From IMG/VR virus record IMGVR_UViG_3300020726_000020, positions 1 through 23,122 of that record: a DNA stretch of 23,122 nucleotides, one strand, 5' to 3'. Source of the stretch: a virus. The position numbers and the translations under genes were made by a program. The first letter of the stretch is position 1; each line of letters opens with the position of its first letter. Of this stretch, positions 3,180 to 19,116 are shown one piece after another. Below the pieces are notes generated by a model that was not told the DNA's origin, did no database searches, and saw nothing but the letters and a program-made list of their open reading frames with translations.

Positions 3180-4898
3180 TTAAAGTGCAGGACCACCTGC
3201 ACCAATTGCACCTGCAGCACCCTGTGATCCTGGGCCACTTGCACCCGGTGCTCCCGGTTCTGCAACACCTGCATCGGGACCCAATGCTTCTATATCCGCA
3301 GCTACACCGCCTGGACTAAAACCGCCGCTACGTAAGCTAGGAGCATCAACTGCGGCCATCTCAGGATTGCCTTTTTCTTCTGCCCATGCTGTTTCGTTTT
3401 CACTAATCTCTTGTTCACTCATACCTAAATAACGCTTCATTAAAAAACGCTTACTTAAATAAGGTGTTTGTTCAAGCTGAGTAAAGTTAGTAATACGTGC
3501 TGCATCAATATCTGCTTGACGATATTGTGCAAAGTTTTGTGGTTCGTTGAATGATAAATCGAATAATGATCCATCAATGTTAAAACCTCTCCAACGCATA
3601 AACAGTTTAAACTCACTGTCCAACTTATCTGCAATCATCGATTGTAACCGTACACAATATTGATTAAAGCGCCATTCTTGAATAAGTGCTGTGCCCACAC
3701 GCCCATCAGTATATGCTGCTGTGCCATCTTCGGCAGTAGTAGGCAAATAGGAGCTAGGAATACGCAAACCGCGGAACAATTTGTTAGTAAAGAAGCGTAA
3801 ATCGGTGATTTCACCTAGGTTTTGACCGCCGGGGAACACGTCTACACTACTACCCCGCCCATCAGCTGTAACCGGGAAGAAATAGTCTTCGTTTTGTGAT
3901 AACGGATTATATGTAGCATCCATCATGTTGCTGTTGTTGCCTGTACCGGACTGTGTAGGAATACGACGTTGGTGAATTTCGTTTTTAATACGTTCAACGA
4001 ATGCCATTGCCATATGACTTGGCATGTTACCTACGTCAATTTTAAATACACGACGTTCCGGTGCACGTTGTACACGATAGATGATAATACTATCTTCTAA
4101 TAATTCTTTTTGTTTGAATACTTTAAAAATGTTTTCTAATACCGAGTTGCCAAATGGCCAATATACATCTAATCCTTCTGTTAAGCTAACGTGAACTACG
4201 TGCTCTGCATTAATCGCAGCCTCATTCATTGCTTTACTAAAGCGACTACCACCACCAAACGGTGCTTGCGGCTGTGTATATGCGCCGCTAGGACCACCCG
4301 TTTGCGGGTGATTCATGTAGGTATCTGTTGTAGCAACTGCTGTTACAGTTAAGTTTTGGAAGTTAGGGTTTAAGTCTTTAATTAAGTATTGCTCGGGCTT
4401 TTTACCTTCACCTTCGTTAACAATAACTTTAGTAACTTTAGACATTTCTGTCCACATTAGTTTAAAGTTTTCTGGATCACGAATGAATACTTGATCGCCG
4501 TACTTAAATGTGTTACGTACAATTTTAAAGATACGTTTGTTTAGTTCGTTTAGTGCCACCCATTGCTGTAACTGTTCGTTAATAATTTTAACTTCGTTAT
4601 CGCTAGGTTGTTCTTTAAATTTAATAGTAAATGCTGTGTGATTTTCTAAGTTCTTTTGACTACAGAACTCTGCCAGAATATCTAGTGCTGCATTAACTTC
4701 CGAGTCCATATCCATTTGCTCGTATTGGTTATACCGCTCAACACGATTTGGCTGTCCTGTATAAACTTCAGGAAGTTGACTTTGATAGTTACGGTATCCA
4801 GGATCGGCAATGCGGCCGCCTCCCAAAGGACTTACGTTACTAGGTAAATTTGATGTTTTAAAGTACTTGCGCCACGTACCGCGGGGTGTTTCAGCCAT
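3180..4898 (-). CDS. 20: Portal vertex protein gp20
   Basis: This 572-aa protein shows features of T4 gp20, the dodecameric portal through which DNA enters the head and to which the neck attaches. These include NQYEQMDMDSEVNAALDILA (about residues 57-76), FKYGDQVFIRDPE, an IIYRVQRAPERRVFKIDVGN segment, and RLQSMIADKLDSEFKLFMRW in the second half. It is somewhat longer than T4 gp20 (524 aa). The excess lies mainly in the last 60 residues, which are Gly/Ala/Pro-rich and end in collagen-like G-x-y triplets (GAPGASGPGSQGAAGAIGAG). The ATG overlaps the stop of the upstream homing endonuclease gene (TAATG), so its translation may be coupled to that gene. No frameshift is seen. Confidence 0.93.
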   Translation of the reverse strand: MAETPRGTWRKYFKTSNLPSNVSPLGGGRIADPGYRNYQSQLPEVYTGQPNRVERYNQYEQMDMDSEVNAALDILAEFCSQKNLENHTAFTIKFKEQPSDNEVKIINEQLQQWVALNELNKRIFKIVRNTFKYGDQVFIRDPENFKLMWTEMSKVTKVIVNEGEGKKPEQYLIKDLNPNFQNLTVTAVATTDTYMNHPQTGGPSGAYTQPQAPFGGGSRFSKAMNEAAINAEHVVHVSLTEGLDVYWPFGNSVLENIFKVFKQKELLEDSIIIYRVQRAPERRVFKIDVGNMPSHMAMAFVERIKNEIHQRRIPTQSGTGNNSNMMDATYNPLSQNEDYFFPVTADGRGSSVDVFPGGQNLGEITDLRFFTNKLFRGLRIPSSYLPTTAEDGTAAYTDGRVGTALIQEWRFNQYCVRLQSMIADKLDSEFKLFMRWRGFNIDGSLFDLSFNEPQNFAQYRQADIDAARITNFTQLEQTPYLSKRFLMKRYLGMSEQEISENETAWAEEKGNPEMAAVDAPSLRSGGFSPGGVAADIEALGPDAGVAEPGAPGASGPGSQGAAGAIGAGGPAL

Positions 4899-5380
4899 TA
4901 TGAATGTCCATTTTTACGACGGGTTTCCATCGTTTTTTCTAATCGTTTTTGTTTATACTCTGGGTCGGCCCAAAGATTTTTAACTGCATTTTTTATATTG
5001 TTAGCATGGCTATCTGTTTTAGGTTTTCTATATTTTTGTTTGTGTTCTTCGGTTCTAACTTTACCTAAATTGCCTTGTCTAATTTTTTCAACTGCTTCTT
5101 CGGAATGTTTCCAACCCGGTTCTGCTACCCATCTTGTTACTTTTTTGTTATCTAATATACCACCATGTTTTTTACAACCATAGAATTTAATTAATTCTGA
5201 TTCCATCTCGTATGCTGCTTTGTTAGTTAAACCGTCTTTAAGAATAATACGTCTATTTTCTGGTGGTACTTCAGTATATAAATGGTGTTCTCTAATCCGT
5301 GTTCCACTACCTTTACCAATGTAGTATGGTAACCCATCTTCAGTAATGTATTGATACGCGTAATAGTTGCAACCGGCCAT
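4898..5380 (-). CDS. Free-standing GIY-YIG homing endonuclease with NUMOD3-type region
   Basis: This 160-aa protein has an N-terminal GIY-YIG nuclease module: YYAYQYITEDGLPYYIGKG gives the paired GIY/YIG strands (residues about 6-24). Arg28 and Arg30 follow in TRIREHH, and a Glu-containing helix in AAYEMESELIKFYG carries the expected metal-binding Glu. The C-terminal half has WKHSEEAVEKIRQGNLGK and a second basic HKQKYRKPK segment, typical of NUMOD3 DNA-binding repeats in phage mobile endonucleases. Such enzymes cut a neighbouring locus in phages lacking the gene and spread by repair; they are not needed for virion assembly. It sits between the tape measure and portal genes, outside either coding sequence, and overlaps the portal ATG by 1 bp. 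A late-type promoter precedes it at 5402-5409. Confidence 0.85.
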   Translation of the reverse strand: MAGCNYYAYQYITEDGLPYYIGKGSGTRIREHHLYTEVPPENRRIILKDGLTNKAAYEMESELIKFYGCKKHGGILDNKKVTRWVAEPGWKHSEEAVEKIRQGNLGKVRTEEHKQKYRKPKTDSHANNIKNAVKNLWADPEYKQKRLEKTMETRRKNGHS

Positions 5381-9112: not shown

Positions 9113-9327
9113 CTTTAACTCCTGAGCAAATCACTCAGGAATTTGCTACATTAGATAGAGAAGCAAGAGCCATAAGAGAAGAATCAATGAAAATGTCATG
9201 GTTTATGCGGGGTGGGCTATCTTATGAAGATGCATTAGCTCTGAGTACTCAAGAACGAGAAATCATTTCTAAAATCATTAAAGATAACTTAGATACCACA
9301 AAAGAGTCAGGCCTCCCATTTTTTTAG
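9109..9327 (+). CDS. 51: gp51-like tail/hub assembly protein (72 aa, or C-terminal extension of gp26-like)
   Basis: This ORF follows the gp26-like gene with a TTGA stop/start overlap and ends at 9327. If it starts independently it uses TTG, has no Shine-Dalgarno, and gives 72 aa. The visible core, EESMKMSWFMRGGLSYEDAL followed by TQEREIISKIIKDN, resembles the short conserved part of gp51-type hub assembly proteins in T4-like marine phages. T4 gp51 itself is longer (about 249 aa). The missing initiator and the slippery heptamer at 9088-9094 make translation as a -1 frameshift extension of the upstream protein a serious alternative. That would be analogous to the G/GT tail chaperones of lambda-like phages. 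The product is helical, without cysteines or membrane segments. Confidence 0.65.
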   Translation: MTLTPEQITQEFATLDREARAIREESMKMSWFMRGGLSYEDALALSTQEREIISKIIKDNLDTTKESGLPFF

Positions 9328-9357
9328 TATTATGTATTACTTTGCGTGTTTCGTTTA

Positions 9358-9413
9358 AGACTTACTTGCGTAAGTCTATTGCTTTCGTTATCACTCAGCA
9401 ATGTTTTTCTTTT
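9358..9413 (+). terminator. Possible terminator hairpins for the late gp26/gp51-like transcript
   Basis: An 8-bp perfect hairpin (AGACTTAC / GTAAGTCT, 4-nt loop, 9358-9377) is followed at once by a 6-bp hairpin ATTGCT / AGCAAT (9378-9402). After that comes GTTTTTCTTTT. The order stem-then-T-run fits a Rho-independent terminator on the plus strand just after the 72-aa ORF. The second stem is AT-rich, so strength is doubtful. The same stems could instead belong to the minus-strand structured RNA. Confidence 0.35.
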
Positions 9414-9831
9414 ATTACATATTTAAATTACAACGAAGTTGATAGTTTCATGTAGATAAATCTGGTCAGACGGAACCATTTCACAGGTTCCATCCAGTCC
9501 GCTTCATGTGAGTATCACTAGCCGAGACATTGGAAATAGGTATTTTATTATACACTGAATGCTAATGGGCTCTAATCTTTCCCAACCTACATCGATCTCA
9601 CAGTATTGCTACTGCTACCTTAAACCTCGTTCCTAGTGTTTAAGTTTTTATAGCCAGTGTCTTTGTATGCTAACAATTCATACTATATCAATGCGTTGGG
9701 TGTATTGTTTTACCCTCAGACTCACTTCCGATTTTTCAGGATAGTGGGATAAACCCACGGGAGTGCCTCAATATGTTACGTGTCCGGTTATTCCCCGGTT
9801 TTTCCACAGCGGTATTACAACTGGCCCGCTA
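9358..9831 (-). ncRNA. Candidate structured non-coding RNA in a 507-bp gene-free region
   Basis: No credible ORF fills 9328-9834. The stretch is dense in inverted repeats and slightly richer in G+C than its neighbours (about 42% by hand count over 9481-9840). Stems include AGCGG/CCGCT (9809-9831), CCGG/CCGG (9784-9798), GTGGG/CCCAC (9744-9758), GTATG/CATAC (9664-9682), CTTAAAC/GTTTAAG (9619-9644), CAGTA/TACTG (9601-9614), CTGG plus GGAACC / GGTTCC plus CCAG (9462-9497), ATTGCT/AGCAAT (9378-9402) and AGACTTAC/GTAAGTCT (9358-9377). Read on the minus strand, the CAGTA and AGACTTAC stems are closed by GCAA, a GNRA tetraloop, which favours that strand. The RNA could be transcribed from the promoter before the 85-aa gene. 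I cannot match it to tRNA, tmRNA, RNase P or a group I/II intron core. Boundaries are approximate. Confidence 0.45.
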
Positions 9832-9834
9832 ACC

Positions 9835-10092
9835 TTATGTGTTAGTAAAATAATTCTTTGGTAACCACATTATAAATTTTCCGCTACATGTTTTACAAAC
9901 TGCCTTACCTACATGCGGCCCGGATTCTAATTTAACGGGTTCCCAATCGTGTGCTACATGCACACCTAAATTTTTATTTAAAGTGTTTTTCTTATCGTGC
10001 CATTGTTTATCAAACCCCTTTTTTGGATTACTCCAGTATTCGGTGTTTAATATACTAGTTTGTGGTTGGCGGTCCCATTTAAGTTTTGTCAT
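9835..10092 (-). CDS. 85-aa putative zinc-binding protein, function unknown
   Basis: The product is a small basic protein starting MTKLKWDRQPQTS. Its C-terminal half holds a probable metal site: His45, His48 and His60 precede Cys66-KT-Cys69 in GPHVGKAVCKTCSGKF, followed by the aromatic IMWLPKNYF tail. Only one CxxC is present, so a His/Cys zinc knuckle is more likely than a four-Cys ribbon. I do not recognise a function. It is the last protein gene of the long minus-strand run and lies directly before the structured gene-free region. A TAGACA-17-TAAAAT promoter precedes it with an 11-nt gap to the ATG and no Shine-Dalgarno. Confidence 0.7.
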   Translation of the reverse strand: MTKLKWDRQPQTSILNTEYWSNPKKGFDKQWHDKKNTLNKNLGVHVAHDWEPVKLESGPHVGKAVCKTCSGKFIMWLPKNYFTNT

Positions 10093-10137: not shown

Positions 10138-10923
10138 TTAAATCTTTTCCATTAAAGAATCTAGGAAATTTGTATAGTAGGAGTAGTTGGACTTTATGCC
10201 GGGGTGTACGTTGTCGTTGTTTGTATCTAATTTAGAATACAGCATTGAGTTATATAGGTTAAGCCAGTGCGACTCTTGTATAGTTCCTGCATCTGTGTAT
10301 TCTTTATGTATTTTATTATATAATTTAAAAATTTCTTCGTCGTTGCGATTGTCTGTATTAATTAATTTCTTAGTAAATTGTGTATAGTCACTTGGCATTG
10401 CATTTGTTAATTTGTTAAAATAATTCTCATCCCACGGACATAGTCCGTTTATAAAAAAGATCTTAGTTTTGTATAAACCTGCAACTTTTATTAGAACATT
10501 TACATATCTTACTAAATCTAGTATTTCGTGATGTAAATTTGCTAATGTTGTAAATCTATCTCTTATATTCTCTAAATACTTCTTAGAATAATTTATTTCG
10601 TTTGTATTAACATCAAATAATCCTGCATTTGGCATAAAAGTTACTTTAGTGCTATATAATTCTAATCCTAATTGCATTTCATATCTTGGTACACTAGACC
10701 ACTGTACAAACACATATTTGAAACTATTGTTTGTTAGTGCCTCCAATGTGCGATTAAATATTATAGCATTAGATCTGCCGGCTTCGCTAACATTAACTAA
10801 TTCGTAATCACGTAAAAAACTATTTTGATGCAGTAAATTAACCCAAAGTTCCGGTGCGTGTTCTTCTTGATCAAACCCAGTGCCTTGTGTATAACTACAC
10901 CCGGCAAATAATACTTTATTCAA
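10138..10923 (-). CDS. SGNH/GDSL-hydrolase-like protein
   Basis: This 261-aa protein begins MNKVLFAGCSYTQGTG, where GCSYTxG corresponds to the GDSL block I with the nucleophile at Ser10. A block with EAGRSN follows, and near the C-terminus comes DNVHPG with Asp237 and His240 in the D-x-x-H spacing of the catalytic pair. SGNH enzymes cleave or transfer acyl or other esters on lipids, sugars or glycans; the substrate here is unknown. No signal peptide is visible, so it probably acts in the cytoplasm. It starts with TTG overlapping the upstream stop as TTGA; no nearby ATG would preserve the catalytic block. It belongs to the run with the methyltransferase and radical-SAM genes and may be part of the same modification pathway (inference). 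Confidence 0.68.
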   Translation of the reverse strand: MNKVLFAGCSYTQGTGFDQEEHAPELWVNLLHQNSFLRDYELVNVSEAGRSNAIIFNRTLEALTNNSFKYVFVQWSSVPRYEMQLGLELYSTKVTFMPNAGLFDVNTNEINYSKKYLENIRDRFTTLANLHHEILDLVRYVNVLIKVAGLYKTKIFFINGLCPWDENYFNKLTNAMPSDYTQFTKKLINTDNRNDEEIFKLYNKIHKEYTDAGTIQESHWLNLYNSMLYSKLDTNNDNVHPGIKSNYSYYTNFLDSLMEKI

Positions 10924-11348
10924 ATCTTGCCCTTAATGTGACTACCATGCACACGTACTTGTATGTGCCCGTTATAATAATCATCGCTTTCTAATACTCT
11001 GCGACTAAACTGTTCTCTTGCTTCTATATAACTGCACTCCGATTTACTCCGGCAATAGTAAAGTATTTCTCTACTAAAGTTTTCAACGCCTAATGCAACT
11101 ACATCTTTTGTTAATTCTGGACTGGAACCATAATACTCTTGCCAATCACTATCAATTTTGCTACGGATCTTCTTTTTCTTCTTAGTGCCGTTCTTGAGCT
11201 TAACTACTTTATACGCTGTTTTACTGAATTTTGCGAGCTTTTTACCAATATATTTTCTTCCAGAAAGTTTATTTGTAATTAAATAAACAAATCCGACGCA
11301 ATCTTCGGGAAGAGATTCTACTAGAGTGTTTTCAAAAAGCCATGACAT
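10920..11348 (-). CDS. GIY-YIG nuclease-like protein
   Basis: This 142-aa protein has a GIY-YIG module from about residue 19: GFVYLITNKLSGRKYIGKK supplies the paired motif (VYL...KYIGKK). A Glu-containing helix, ECSYIEAREQFSRRVL, carries the probable catalytic Glu. A very basic insert (KNGTKKKKKIRSKID) lies between them, and the C-terminus ends YNGHIQVRVHGSHIKGKI. There is no NUMOD repeat, unlike the other GIY-YIG gene in this window, so it may be a phage nuclease with a dedicated role rather than a typical homing enzyme. It overlaps the SGNH-like gene as TTGA and begins at ATG 11348. Function beyond nuclease fold is not clear. Confidence 0.75.
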   Translation of the reverse strand: MSWLFENTLVESLPEDCVGFVYLITNKLSGRKYIGKKLAKFSKTAYKVVKLKNGTKKKKKIRSKIDSDWQEYYGSSPELTKDVVALGVENFSREILYYCRSKSECSYIEAREQFSRRVLESDDYYNGHIQVRVHGSHIKGKI

Positions 11349-11363
11349 GCATAGTAGTTATCA

Positions 11364-12176
11364 TCATTTGCCTGTATCTGTATTTTTTAATACATAGAAG
11401 TTTTTCTTCCCAGCGGTTCTCGGTGGCGACTCACCATGCCCAATAAAATCGTGATAATCGTAATAAAATAATACTTCCCACCCATGATATTTTAGTACAG
11501 AATTTAGCGCATTACGAGAAGGCATCAACCCACTTGTGTATTCTTCCCCGGTATTAGTAAATGATTGTATATTTTTAGTATTAGTTGATGCTTTCCAAAA
11601 TTCAAAATGCCCATCATCACAATAATCATCTATAACTGAACTTTCAAAAAATAAAAACTTTGGTTTCACTTTTTGCTTTATAAATGCTAGTACATCGATG
11701 CCGTTGTTTAAATAGTACATTACATCCAGGAAAAATACAACATCATACGGTTCGTTATTATATTGTTGCATGTACTCGTTTAACGACATTTTAGTATTTG
11801 TAACAATGCCGGATAGGTTTCTTAATTTGATATACTCATCACCGAGACTTTTTCGAGTTGTGTCTGGCTCAACACAGTCTGCATGACTAGCACCATTTAA
11901 TATAGCCCATACGCTCCAGAAATTAAGATTTGATCCTAGATCTAAAATCTTAGCATCTTTAAGTAAATTCTGATGTAACACATAATAACAATAGTACCTG
12001 GCTAACCAGCATTCGGGATAACTCCACACAGTATGAGAGTCTGGTGTAAATTCGGCACCGGGGTTATCAAACAGTTTATGAAAAATGTATTCAATATATT
12101 GGCTATCATTGAGTGTACTTTTTAACTCAGCAAGTTTATTAAAGTCCATTTTTGCCGACGGCATACTGTTGTACAT
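11364..12176 (-). CDS. Class I SAM-dependent methyltransferase
   Basis: The 270-aa product has the Rossmann methyltransferase motifs in order. These are ILDLGSN (motif I, residues 77-83), an acidic DCVEPD at 100-105 that would bind the ribose hydroxyls, and a YDVVFFLDVMYYLNNG motif IV segment. No DPPY/NPPY motif is present, so a DNA adenine or N4-cytosine methylase is unlikely. The best fit is a small-molecule, sugar, protein or RNA methyltransferase of the broad Methyltransf_11/23-like group. The N-terminal helical region (about 60 residues) and the C-terminal tail with HGESPPRTAGKKNFYVL are not recognised. It lies between a radical-SAM gene and a GIY-YIG gene with 15-22 bp gaps. The start is ATG 12176; ATGs at codons 5 and 10 are possible alternatives. 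Confidence 0.78.
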   Translation of the reverse strand: MYNSMPSAKMDFNKLAELKSTLNDSQYIEYIFHKLFDNPGAEFTPDSHTVWSYPECWLARYYCYYVLHQNLLKDAKILDLGSNLNFWSVWAILNGASHADCVEPDTTRKSLGDEYIKLRNLSGIVTNTKMSLNEYMQQYNNEPYDVVFFLDVMYYLNNGIDVLAFIKQKVKPKFLFFESSVIDDYCDDGHFEFWKASTNTKNIQSFTNTGEEYTSGLMPSRNALNSVLKYHGWEVLFYYDYHDFIGHGESPPRTAGKKNFYVLKNTDTGK

Positions 12177-12198: not shown

Positions 12199-13203
12199 TT
12201 ACCAAGTTGTTGCATAGTCTTGATTTACTACGGCTTTTGTACATTTAGTATTGCACTCTTGCCAGCGGAATTGTTTAAACTCTGTTATCCAGAATGGATC
12301 GGCTATTACTTCTGTTAATGTTCTGTTGTTCAAATTGAATCGTTCTGCTAATTGTTGCCATTCGTTGTTATGACTGTATCTGTTGGCTACCCAACAGCAA
12401 GGGAATAGTCTGCCTCGAGCATCAATATACAATCCTTTATTGCCAATTTCGCACAAGGGTATGATTGTCGGATTGTCTTTAACTTGATTATACAATGTAA
12501 TATTAATAGGATGTATGTTGCTAACATTATTATTAAAACGGGTAGTATCGCGCTCGAATCGGTGCGTATTACTTACGTACCTATCGCTGGGTTGTAGAGG
12601 ATCTATAGTTCCATAATTGGGATATATCTTTCCAAACTTAGTGCTACGTGTTAATTGAAAAGCATCCATTCCTAATTTGTTTGCTAAAGATTGCATATAA
12701 TCTATATGATCTTCGTTAAACTTAAACGCTATAGCGGCCCATACTAAACGACACTTACTAGTGGCTCTTAACACCTCAATGCCTTGAATAATAGATACGA
12801 AATCGCTGTTTACCCTATACAAATTGTTACTTGCATTATCATATCCATCCACGCTAAAGTGTACGGTATCTGCTTCTGTAAGTACATTACCTAATGCTGT
12901 CCAATAATCCGGTTTCTTATGACTACCGTTTGTGATAATAACAATCTCAACAGGTTTAATACTTTTAATATATTCAATTACGGCGATTAAATCGTGTGCA
13001 TATATAGGATCCCCGTCGTCGCCGCAGAATGTAATCTTTTCTAAATTAGCAAGAATAAATTCTTCTGTAAAATTTCTTTTAAAAAACTCTAAGGCTAACT
13101 CTGTGTTAATTAAACTATCAGGAACTTCTTGTCGGGCGCAACGAGGGCACCGTAAGGTACACTTGCTACTAATCTCAATATGAAAATGCCAGGTAGCTAA
13201 CAT
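12199..13203 (-). CDS. Radical SAM protein with C-terminal SPASM/twitch-type cluster
   Basis: The 334-aa product has the radical-SAM CxxxCxxC at Cys15, Cys19 and Cys22 (SSKCTLRCPRC). A GDDGDP motif near residue 61 stands where the SAM-binding GGE motif normally lies, and an IITNGS strand follows. The C-terminus has further cysteines: Cys251, the FPCCW pair Cys269/Cys270, and Cys317/Cys321. This arrangement fits a SPASM or twitch auxiliary [4Fe-4S] domain. Enzymes of this type modify peptides, proteins or sugars (for example sactipeptide, PQQ or anaerobic sulfatase maturation), but the substrate cannot be read from the sequence. The start is ATG 13203, 2 bp after the stop of the oxygenase-like gene. 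Confidence 0.85.
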   Translation of the reverse strand: MLATWHFHIEISSKCTLRCPRCARQEVPDSLINTELALEFFKRNFTEEFILANLEKITFCGDDGDPIYAHDLIAVIEYIKSIKPVEIVIITNGSHKKPDYWTALGNVLTEADTVHFSVDGYDNASNNLYRVNSDFVSIIQGIEVLRATSKCRLVWAAIAFKFNEDHIDYMQSLANKLGMDAFQLTRSTKFGKIYPNYGTIDPLQPSDRYVSNTHRFERDTTRFNNNVSNIHPINITLYNQVKDNPTIIPLCEIGNKGLYIDARGRLFPCCWVANRYSHNNEWQQLAERFNLNNRTLTEVIADPFWITEFKQFRWQECNTKCTKAVVNQDYATTW

Positions 13204-13840: not shown

Positions 13841-15334
13841 TTATCTTTTTTCTAATAGTATAACAGGTTTCGCAGAATATTCAATCAAATTTGATTGTTC
13901 GGCTAATTTTTTAAGTACTAGTAACTCTTCACGAACTCTTGGCATCGGATAGCCCAACTCGACACAAAGTTCATGTATTTCGATACGTCTACGTATTCTT
14001 TCTTTGAGAGTATTACTGGGGTTTAGTGCAGAAGTCCAACTGTAGACACTATCAAATTTAATATTGTCACTAATATTTATTTGCAAATCGTGTACCATAT
14101 CCATAATTGGGGTATGGTCGTACAAGTGCATGGTAAATCCCCAGCGCATCATGAATATCGTTCCCATATCTGAATATTTTTTATATTTTTTTATAGCATC
14201 GATATTGTCTTGATGATCTTGTGCTGTTTCGGTTGGGTATCCCACAATCATTAAGAATACGTTTGGAATACCCCACAGCGCACATTGTTCTAAGTGATAA
14301 TCAATGTCGGCATTTGAAAACTTCTTACGCATATGAGTACGAACATTGTTACTAAAACTCTCAATGCCAGTTGTTAACATAGTACATCCGGCTAACCGCA
14401 TAAGCTCATAGCTACGTGCTGGCTGTTGCGTAGATGGTCTACAAATAAATTGTCCTTGATATCTAATAGGTTCTAACTCGGGATTTTTTAATTTTTCCTC
14501 GTACAACAATTCGTTGAATCGATCAAAGTTACTAATGCTTCCGTTTATTAAACTATCAGTAAATTCAAAATTGGTAATTCCGTAGTCATAAAAATGTTTT
14601 TTAATCTCTGCAACAATACTCTCTGCACTACGATATCTAAACTTTGGCCACGTTAATGCTATATCGCAGAATGTGCAGTTACGTACACATCCCCGACTGC
14701 CCGTAATTAATACCCGGTTGCCCTGATATCTATCCATATCAAAAAATTCATATGTTGGCACAGGTAAGCTAGATAGATCTTCAATTTGTATAGGATTGTT
14801 TTGATTAATCCCGGGATACTTACTGTTACCGTTGAGTAATTCGCGAAACGTTATTTCGCCTTCTCCGTATATTACAAAATTGGCTAACTTGTGTTCTAAA
14901 ATGTAATTACCGAAGATTTGCTTATTCCCAACACTGGTATCAGTTGATACGCCCGTTCCGCCAACTACACTAGTGATTGTAAAGGATTCTTTATACCATG
15001 CAAGTACTTTGGTTGCAATACGATTACTAAAATAACTAAACACACTGAAGCAAACAAAATCAGTTTGGGCATTAATTTTAGAATTAAGACCATTTTTAAA
15101 AATCTTTTTTAATTTATTTTCAAGTTTTATATCTATATGATCGCTGGAAAATGCATTCCAAGATTCAAGCTGTTGCCATTCTTTAGAACTAAGTCCATCA
15201 AATAAATCTAAATTGTAATCAAAAATTGTAACATTGTAATTGCTTTCTTTAGCTACACTGGAAAGTATTGCTAATGCGCCGGGCGGATATGCAAGCTCAA
15301 CTTTGGGTAACGATATAATAACAAGATTTTTCAT
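13841..15334 (-). CDS. B12-binding-type radical SAM protein
   Basis: The 497-aa product starts with a Rossmann-like domain typical of cobalamin-dependent radical-SAM enzymes. This has VIISLPKVELAYPPGALAIL (residues 5-24, including YPPG), a VVGGTGVS loop at 123-130 and IYGEGEITFREL near 155-166. No clear DxHxxG is seen, so cobalamin may bind base-off without a lower His ligand, as in many of this class, or not at all. The catalytic core has SRGCVRNCTFC with Cys216, Cys220 and Cys223. Family members catalyse methylations, ring formation or other radical steps on peptides, lipids, tetrapyrroles or tRNA (MiaB/RimO-like relatives have different domain order). The ATG overlaps the previous stop as TAATG. 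It is flanked by the oxygenase-like gene and a 137-aa unknown. Confidence 0.85.
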   Translation of the reverse strand: MKNLVIISLPKVELAYPPGALAILSSVAKESNYNVTIFDYNLDLFDGLSSKEWQQLESWNAFSSDHIDIKLENKLKKIFKNGLNSKINAQTDFVCFSVFSYFSNRIATKVLAWYKESFTITSVVGGTGVSTDTSVGNKQIFGNYILEHKLANFVIYGEGEITFRELLNGNSKYPGINQNNPIQIEDLSSLPVPTYEFFDMDRYQGNRVLITGSRGCVRNCTFCDIALTWPKFRYRSAESIVAEIKKHFYDYGITNFEFTDSLINGSISNFDRFNELLYEEKLKNPELEPIRYQGQFICRPSTQQPARSYELMRLAGCTMLTTGIESFSNNVRTHMRKKFSNADIDYHLEQCALWGIPNVFLMIVGYPTETAQDHQDNIDAIKKYKKYSDMGTIFMMRWGFTMHLYDHTPIMDMVHDLQINISDNIKFDSVYSWTSALNPSNTLKERIRRRIEIHELCVELGYPMPRVREELLVLKKLAEQSNLIEYSAKPVILLEKR

Positions 15335-17519: not shown

Positions 17520-17548
17520 AATATACTAGATTTAGTTGTAAAAGTCAA
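17520..17548 (-). promoter_or_regulatory. Sigma70-like promoter TTGACT-17 bp-TATATT for gp46
   Basis: On the minus strand the -35 TTGACT (17543-17548) and -10 TATATT (17520-17525) are 17 bp apart, each 5 of 6 consensus. The -35 contains the TGA stop of the upstream radical-SAM gene. Only 6 bp separate the -10 from the gp46 ATG, so transcription should begin at or next to the start codon. The element closely resembles that before gp47. Confidence 0.6.
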
Positions 17549-19116
17549 TATTCCATTGCCCGGGATATTTCGGGATATAATGCAGAAAAACTCTCATCCC
17601 TGATGGAATCAAGATTTTTCATATAATTGCAAAAATCGTCGCTACTATAAGGTTTAGCTGATTTTAAAATGTTAATAATATTACTAATAAACATCGATAC
17701 TGTAGGATCAATTGAATGATATGTGGATAGCTTTTCTAAAACTAACCTGTTTGCGCTACTAGTAAGATGCGAAATATTTAAGTATTCTGGAAGGTACAGG
17801 GTACTAAAATGAAAGCTATCAAATTTCTGTGCGATTATCCAATTACATATTTCTGGTAGGTAGTACACGTTTTGAATATTAACTGCCAAATGTAGTGCTA
17901 TTTTAATAACACTACAGTCTAATGCTAAAAATTGTTTTATATTTGAGTTGACTATATCCCATGCAACTCCTGGACGTTCGTACTCGAATCGTTTTCCTAT
18001 ATTATCGACGCTAATGGCAATTTCAACATTTTTAAATTGTTGTAGTAAACTTATATATTTTTCTGGGAAGACAGTACCGTTAGTATTATAATGTATACTA
18101 ATATCTTTAGCCCGATTTAGTGCAACAAGCTGTTCTAGAATTTGAAAGTGCCTAATTGACAGCATAGGTTCGCCACCAGCTAAATCAAAATGTACAATAT
18201 TTGATTTTAGATCTAGTATTGAATTCCAAATTTTGGCATTGTCATCTTTAATCCAATTACCGGCCGACATCAATTGATACACTGGGTGTGATTTTTTATC
18301 TTTAACATTTGAATTATTGATTAATTCTGTAGCGAATAGGCTACTATTATCTGGACTACATATTCTACATTTTAAATTACATACATTACCAAATGCAACA
18401 CTTGCAAATACTAGGTTCGCAATATTATCTTGTTCCCAGTTTGAATTATATGATTCGGGCACAATGCGATGTTTAAGTAATTGTCTTTTACTTTCAGTGC
18501 CGTCGCGTTCCTCGTTCCAGCATCTGGCGCACGGCTCGGGCTTGCTTCCATGTCTAAAGTCTTCTCTAAGTTTTTGCATATAATCGCTGTTATATACGTC
18601 ATCAAACGTATCAACTTGAGCATGAAACGGAGTCCCGTTGTTTTTAGTTATTACTTTATTATAAAAGCAACATGGACGAAATTCCCCGTTAGTAGTAACA
18701 TCTAACGATATCCATGGTTGCGTACAGATAGATTCGGGCGGATTAAGAATCACATTACTAGTCTTATCATAGTTAATCACAGGAGTATCTACTAATTTGA
18801 ATGCAATAGGATCTTCTTCGTTTGAATATAGTTGTGTTGCAGTTGCAAGTATTTGTTTTATTGCAGGATTATTTGATAAAAATATAACAAAAAAGTTTGG
18901 AATATCAATAAAAGATAAACTTTTCTGCAGACTATACGCAAAATCTTCGATTTGTTTTATTTCAAGATTTTCAAAACAAGAGAATATTATTCTATAATCA
19001 TTTGGAAATGATTCCTGCTTGAGGCTGTATAGCTCACGATGTAATGTTGCAGATGGTTTCTCTAAATATTCTACAACAGTACGTACACGATCAAATTGAA
19101 AGTGATCTAAGTTCAT
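17545..19116 (-). CDS. Radical SAM protein with N-terminal twitch-type cysteine cluster
   Basis: The 523-aa product has an N-terminal region of about 125 residues that I do not recognise. Next is a cysteine cluster, Cys131, the PCC pair Cys149/Cys150, and CARC at 196-199, resembling the auxiliary-cluster (twitch/SPASM) fold placed before the core. The radical-SAM motif NVCNLKCRIC gives Cys246, Cys250 and Cys253. GGEP is at 314-317, and IHYNTNG and EIAISVDN mark further barrel strands. Such twitch-domain radical-SAM proteins occur in marine phages with unknown substrates. The gene is inserted between gp47 and gp46: its ATG overlaps the gp47 stop as ATGA and its TGA forms part of the gp46 -35 box. 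It is co-transcribed with gp47 while leaving the gp46 promoter intact. Confidence 0.85.
   Translation of the reverse strand: MNLDHFQFDRVRTVVEYLEKPSATLHRELYSLKQESFPNDYRIIFSCFENLEIKQIEDFAYSLQKSLSFIDIPNFFVIFLSNNPAIKQILATATQLYSNEEDPIAFKLVDTPVINYDKTSNVILNPPESICTQPWISLDVTTNGEFRPCCFYNKVITKNNGTPFHAQVDTFDDVYNSDYMQKLREDFRHGSKPEPCARCWNEERDGTESKRQLLKHRIVPESYNSNWEQDNIANLVFASVAFGNVCNLKCRICSPDNSSLFATELINNSNVKDKKSHPVYQLMSAGNWIKDDNAKIWNSILDLKSNIVHFDLAGGEPMLSIRHFQILEQLVALNRAKDISIHYNTNGTVFPEKYISLLQQFKNVEIAISVDNIGKRFEYERPGVAWDIVNSNIKQFLALDCSVIKIALHLAVNIQNVYYLPEICNWIIAQKFDSFHFSTLYLPEYLNISHLTSSANRLVLEKLSTYHSIDPTVSMFISNIINILKSAKPYSSDDFCNYMKNLDSIRDESFSALYPEISRAMEY

Follow-up and report, generated by a model that had tools for sequence, protein, structure and literature searches.

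The question raised by this locus is what occupies a gene-free stretch between two convergent genes of a phage. The DNA analysed (the window, 23,122 nucleotides in all) is a fragment of a T4-like phage with portal, baseplate hub, gp46/gp47-like and late-sigma-like genes. An earlier note, made from the sequence alone, had proposed that the stretch encodes a large structured RNA on the minus strand. The gap is as it described: positions 9328-9834 are free of open reading frames, a 72-aa gene on the plus strand ends at 9327 and an 85-aa gene on the minus strand ends at 9835. Inverted repeats are abundant within it, and the higher G+C that had been claimed is right in direction (39.2% against 37.8% for the window) but the difference is weak.

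A conserved stretch beside a GIY-YIG gene

A search with the 85-aa protein returned one relative (locus L002), which was enough to show conservation; the gene order there matches that of the window, with the GIY-YIG gene, the 85-aa gene and then a conserved stretch in which compensatory differences are visible by eye. The baseplate-hub protein as a search seed gave no match. Using two exact and two degenerate sequence patterns from the RNA, we fetched at least about 200 loci, and nhmmer found the RNA in at least 197 of the roughly 200 (E < 1e-8), on about 195 IMG/VR contigs of uncultured freshwater and marine viruses. Distinct near-full-length RNAs are present at at least 124 of these 197 loci, with one copy per contig even on contigs of 286-364 kb. 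The elements of the locus are as follows.

9355 to 9846, minus strand: the whole structured RNA (type I), about 490 nt, from nhmmer homologs and covariation, with probable ends near 9846 and 9355 placed by conservation and hairpins.
9835 to 10092, minus strand: 85-aa protein with a CxxC pair, upstream neighbour of the RNA; a relative lies just upstream in 62 of 197 loci among the matches listed.
10920 to 11348, minus strand: SegE-like GIY-YIG endonuclease (PF19835, 2.6e-32), the usual upstream neighbour, near the RNA in 154 of 197 loci among the matches listed.

The 85-aa protein has no match in Pfam or PHROG. The order in T4-like myophages is gp55, gp47, gp46, the SegE-like GIY-YIG gene and the RNA. 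A scan of genome contigs with the patterns gave 8 matches, none similar to the RNA beyond a 20-nt piece, and no chromosome match was real; blastn of the RNA and several relatives against phage and plasmid collections gave no match of note and no cultured phage or plasmid record. Rfam 15, with its models of GOLLD, ROOL, OLE, HEARO, IMES, RNase P and group I and group II introns, gave no match to the RNA at gathering or at E up to 10, the sole match being a chance snoRNA in a neighbouring gene, and ARAGORN found neither tRNA nor tmRNA in the window. These searches agree with the earlier note, which could not fit the stretch to tRNA, tmRNA, RNase P or an intron. No description of the RNA was found in the literature searched, in which subscription journals were thinly covered. 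We conclude that the minus strand from window position 9846 to about 9355 almost certainly encodes a conserved, structured non-coding RNA.

Several other genes in the window are unusual in a phage, including three radical SAM proteins (12199-13203, 13841-15334 and 17545-19116), one of them with a SPASM domain, and among the same phage genes a possible methyltransferase (11364-12176). A second small GIY-YIG-like protein (4898-5380), unrelated to the SegE-like one, lies between the tape-measure and portal genes.

Fold, strand and ends of the RNA

The folding energy of the minus strand was -127.2 kcal/mol (z -2.5; 0 of 100 shuffles as stable) and the plus strand gave z -2.0, so that predicted stability by itself is a modest signal. 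Mutual information with average-product correction was computed over 124 sequences with no structure supplied, and complementary pairs ranked at the top and aligned into helices and pseudoknots. In a MAFFT alignment of 53 diverse members, 94.9% of the cells of the resulting 18-helix structure were paired (87 pairs, a count that includes some inner non-pairs at columns 218-247 and 227-239), compared with 28-39% in slid controls whose partners were moved by 1-3 columns; 0 of 500 shuffles reached any observed pairing value. Two-sided changes occurred at 46 pairs (466 cells), as against 10-16 pairs (32-59 cells) in the slid controls. We were concerned that the MAFFT alignment, although independent of the 124-sequence alignment, covers sequences overlapping those from which the structure was derived, which favours that structure over its slid versions; the count of two-sided changes far exceeds any such advantage. 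Conservation and covariation, whose joint absence the earlier note had named as the argument against its RNA, are thus both strong, and on the evidence of these alignments the fold is proven by matching mutations. Its helices are as follows.

9779 to 9829, minus strand: hairpins P2 (9829-9826/9812-9809) and P3 (9808-9805/9782-9779 with 9798-9795/9787-9784); two-sided changes in P2 and P3b, P3a nearly invariant.
9685 to 9774, minus strand: P4 (9774-9768/9691-9685), enclosing the P5/P5a/P5b/P6 domain; covariation.
9665 to 9683, minus strand: P7 hairpin GTATG/CATAC with a conserved loop; conserved, and covarying in the 124-sequence set.
9536 to 9660, minus strand: the core, with P8a/P8b (9660-9651/9564-9552); this and the next three entries from ab initio covariation and pair counts.
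Core, minus strand: P9 (9644-9638/9625-9619) and P10 (9617-9613/9602-9598).
Core, minus strand: interlocking pseudoknots PK1 (9593-9591/9576-9574) and PK2 (9584-9581/9569-9566).
Core, minus strand: P11 (9590-9586/9540-9536).
9626 to 9637, minus strand: P9 loop ACTAGGAACGAG, near-invariant in the alignment of diverse members.

PK1 and PK2 cross one another, and P11 crosses P8. The P4 interior is reduced or diverged in a marine subgroup with short spacing (L192, L195, L167 and others). G.U usage in pair columns is frequent (e.g., UG in 52 of 53, GU in 47 of 53), and because such U.G and G.U cells would be A.C mismatches on the opposite strand, the RNA is the minus strand of the window. Both GCAA-capped stems that had been noticed on this strand exist, one at 9377-9358 and the other, CAGTA-GCAA-TACTG, inside hairpin P10 (9617-9598).

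The boundaries first given for the RNA, 9358-9831, were nearly right. Conservation reaches the last hairpin, which ends at 9358, and on the 5' side it extends further out than had been given, starting 12 nt inside the 85-aa gene (CTAACACATAAGG, 9845-9833). The elements at the two ends are these.

9833 to 9845, minus strand: 5' element CTAACACNNAAGG with stem P1, conserved throughout the full-length members; the 85-aa gene overlaps it with its final codons and stop (9837-9835).
9358 to 9402, minus strand: 3' hairpins at 9402-9378 and 9377-9358, the latter terminator-like with a GCAA loop, followed by TTAA; sequence varies and the hairpins persist.

The 5' element is kept where the upstream gene is a different one, and where the stop codon (TAA) is lost (CACCCAAGG), and it is therefore part of the RNA and not of the protein. 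At the other end, the terminator-like hairpin reads AGACTTAC-GCAA-GTAAGTCT, and 3'-end hairpins are present in all relatives. The trailing T-run is weak in the window, and a scan for consensus terminators flagged 9358-9377 on the plus strand only, leaving the RNA's own strand unflagged.

Between the core and the terminal hairpins lies a short module with a direct repeat (alignment columns 332-338 and 388-394).

9503 to 9509, minus strand: twin 7-mer, copy 1 (ACATGAA); repeat counts over 124 RNAs.
9470 to 9493, minus strand: P12 hairpin ATGGAACC/GGTTCCGT, flanked by the two 7-mers; pairing in 98.8% of cells, and G.U changes.
9447 to 9453, minus strand: twin 7-mer, copy 2 (ACATGAA); repeat counts over 124 RNAs.

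The 7-mers differ between phages and stay identical within each RNA, whereas the preceding dinucleotide is constant (TC at copy 1, CT at copy 2). Both copies read the same in 113 of 124 RNAs, where chance predicts 43%, and of the 46 RNAs in which copy 1 is not the modal form 35 still have matching copies (3.7% expected); shared ancestry inflates these counts, yet several different forms recur. A complement to the 7-mer occurs 0 times inside the RNA, against 0.67 expected. The excess of the 7-mer across the whole locus is uninformative, because every locus holds its own two copies. From this pattern of repeats we infer that the twin 7-mers may share a common partner outside the RNA.

Two phage lineages and exchangeable parts

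Two properties of the family go beyond the earlier note: it is present in two phage lineages, and its 3' module is common to RNAs with a different, already catalogued 5' part. T4-like genes surround the RNA at at least 148 loci and another gene set does so at at least 38, with no overlap in hallmark genes. The second lineage is a tailed group with a different large terminase and portal and long tail genes. The nearest cultured relatives of the T4-like set are Pseudomonas phage PA5oct, Sinorhizobium phage Phosso and Agrobacterium phage Atu_ph07 (about 50% identity in portal and gp46), and those of the second set are Phage DSL-LC06 and pelagiphages such as HTVC111P (terminase identity 53-57%). 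On the RNA tree, whose deep supports are low, the second lineage falls into several clades, with 6 label changes compared with 23 for shuffled labels; that it mostly clusters yet interleaves suggests, as far as the tree goes, more than one transfer. The genes downstream of the RNA vary in identity and strand, and the upstream genes differ too (85-aa, c37, GIY, c15).

Directly upstream of the RNA, the CxxC protein differs by lineage, being 85 aa in the T4-like loci and about 160 aa, with several CxxC motifs, in 25 of the 38 second-lineage loci (e.g., L072, L086, L098, L115). At many T4-like loci (L002 3762-4577 and relatives), the gene downstream encodes an Ala/Pro/Gly-rich protein starting MKI..LxE, whose sequence looks like the capsid-targeting leader of an internal head protein. 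In PA5oct (MK797984.1, about 76.2-76.8 kb; L213 11600-12160), a poorly annotated stretch downstream of gp46 folds with z -5.2 relative to shuffles, is confined to PA5oct-like phages (11 records with identities of 99.6% or more) and has no Rfam match. Neither our profile nor our covariance model found it, and we rejected it as a homolog; judged by its predicted folding, it may encode a large RNA analogous to that of the window, at a comparable place on the map. In Phosso, gp46 and a Holliday junction resolvase are followed by 1 kb in which no gene is annotated (L212 11411-12424), with several inverted repeats and no match in Rfam.

The SegE-like GIY-YIG protein (PF19835) as a query gave 80 further loci, and of the 66 GIY loci with enough downstream sequence 59 carry an RNA of some type, always on the same strand. 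Most are of a second type (type II), which sits at the same locus in sister phages. The 5' part of type II RNAs, about 140 nt, is Rfam family RF01718 (Polynucleobacter-1; bit scores 69-119), and their 3' third is homologous to that of the window RNA, with the hairpin, the twin 7-mers and the terminal hairpins in the same arrangement and with other 7-mers (GGATAAT, AGATAAT, GGATGAT and others). Searched with a type II profile, the window RNA aligns to profile positions 340-444 with E 9e-7, and L125/L127 reach E 3e-19. Conversely, the RF01718 model finds nothing in the window, either at its gathering score of 37 bits or when E values up to 10 are admitted, and no full type II RNA is recovered by R1, a covariance model built on the window-type core. 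In these comparisons the 3' module is the only part demonstrably common to the two types. Because type II shares this module while the window-type core model misses the type II cores, the RNA of this locus appears to be modular, its 5' and core parts exchangeable and its 3' module shared. By sequence, the window RNA belongs to a new family of large phage RNAs, whose tie to an orphan Rfam family is a single module.

At 14 loci the type II middle and 3' parts occur with neither known 5' domain, and a third, unclassified 5' domain is seen in L236, L237, L239, L241, L253-L255, L258, L293 and L294 (possibly also in L220 and L224). In L156 and L173, a type I 5' element is joined to a type II-like middle, and these two are possible natural chimeras. 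RF01718 has been reported from Burkholderiales and from fresh water or estuary (Weinberg et al. 2010, PMC2864571), an origin that hints, by analogy, at possible hosts.

Possible roles and comparison with known RNAs

Phages keep little non-coding sequence, and so intricate an RNA, kept in at least about 195 contigs of two unrelated lineages, must be useful. Strand, fold, conservation, modularity and distribution across two lineages come directly from the data above; to the reading that we prefer, an independently terminated, trans-acting phage RNA that is probably a ribonucleoprotein scaffold or a decoy for host machinery in infection, we assign a probability of roughly 55%. Action in trans is itself very likely, given that the genes around the RNA vary from locus to locus and that its 3' end is formed by hairpins of its own. 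More tentative, with odds somewhat below even, is a scaffold or decoy mechanism, suggested by a rigid pseudoknotted core on which two identical elements would stand out as single strands. Transcription of the minus-strand RNA would continue from the GIY-YIG and 85-aa genes or start at a putative promoter of its own, and would stop at the hairpin near 9358. In the folded transcript, hairpins at the periphery would accompany a compact core in which two pseudoknots interlock, and in the 3' module a hairpin would be flanked by two identical, single-stranded 7-nt elements. In lytic infection the RNA or ribonucleoprotein, as scaffold or decoy, would then engage a factor of host or phage origin. Each of the twin 7-mers would bind its own copy of a given partner, or both would bind the same copy. 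The conservation could equally reflect catalysis or packaging. A broader reading, which we regard as speculative and rather unlikely, is a modular class of large RNAs, built in phages around a core with a double pseudoknot, that would be catalytic or form a defined RNA or RNP particle and would pass between unrelated phages of the same aquatic hosts, with the twin 7-mers as a recognition code drifting from phage to phage. The fold and the coevolving 7-mers open the RNA to concrete tests.

Another unlikely reading is that the RNA is mobile, whether intron-like or as a homing cassette: some degenerate or novel self-splicing element that travels with the SegE-like GIY-YIG endonuclease. Such mobility would fit the GIY-YIG gene that adjoins the RNA in most T4-like loci (and lies on its other side in 9 of 38 second-lineage loci), the interleaved lineage labels on the RNA tree (6 changes) and the overlap with the ends of different upstream genes, but the group I and II models of Rfam do not match, the RNA lies between genes with no interrupted gene seen, an RNA of one type occupies the same place in 59 of 66 GIY relatives, as a resident gene would, and SegE-like proteins also occur in cyanophages, there without the RNA by blastn. 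We consider it unlikely, and a shade more so, that the RNA serves an adjacent gene in cis, as its leader or 3' UTR element. It always follows closely behind a same-strand gene whose stop codon it overlaps; nevertheless, these upstream genes differ among loci, and the size and pseudoknotted core are excessive for a stability element. A leader or riboswitch is also hard to reconcile with the 3'-end hairpins in all relatives and with downstream genes that are unrelated and lie on either strand. Less probable again is a role in the virion, structural or in packaging, after the manner of the phi29 prohead RNA. In the second lineage the RNA has tail genes on one side and the large terminase and portal genes on the other, and in T4-like phages it is close to baseplate hub, tape-measure and portal genes, which would suit that role; against it, portals and terminases differ between the lineages with the RNA nearly the same, and T4-like packaging motors are not known to require an RNA. 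Decayed coding sequence or a chance cluster of hairpins is refuted by the covariation, the conservation and the closed reading frames (longest stop-free run within the RNA, in any frame, 52 codons), and we give it almost no weight.

Among known RNAs, the phi29 prohead RNA is likewise phage-encoded and structured, with virion genes adjoining in both cases; it is 174 nt long with a different fold, and the window RNA has no Rfam match. Group I and II introns, HEARO and the IscB omega-RNA are also structured RNAs near endonuclease genes, but here Rfam gives no match, no gene is seen to be interrupted, and none beside the RNA is recognisable as IscB- or TnpB-like. GOLLD and ROOL are large, ornate, pseudoknotted RNAs of phages and prophages whose function is unknown (PMC12286853). 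The window RNA is also large, pseudoknotted and phage-borne; unlike them, it is shorter (about 490 nt), shows no sequence or model match to either and has no tRNA gene in its window by ARAGORN. Polynucleobacter-1 differs from the window RNA in that the 5' and core domains of the latter have no RF01718 match, and it resembles it in its freshwater setting and in the 3' module that RF01718-bearing type II RNAs share with it. The Rfam model spans just about one third of the type II RNA, and Polynucleobacter-1 thereby gains a context, in these phages, as one exchangeable 5' domain of a longer RNA.
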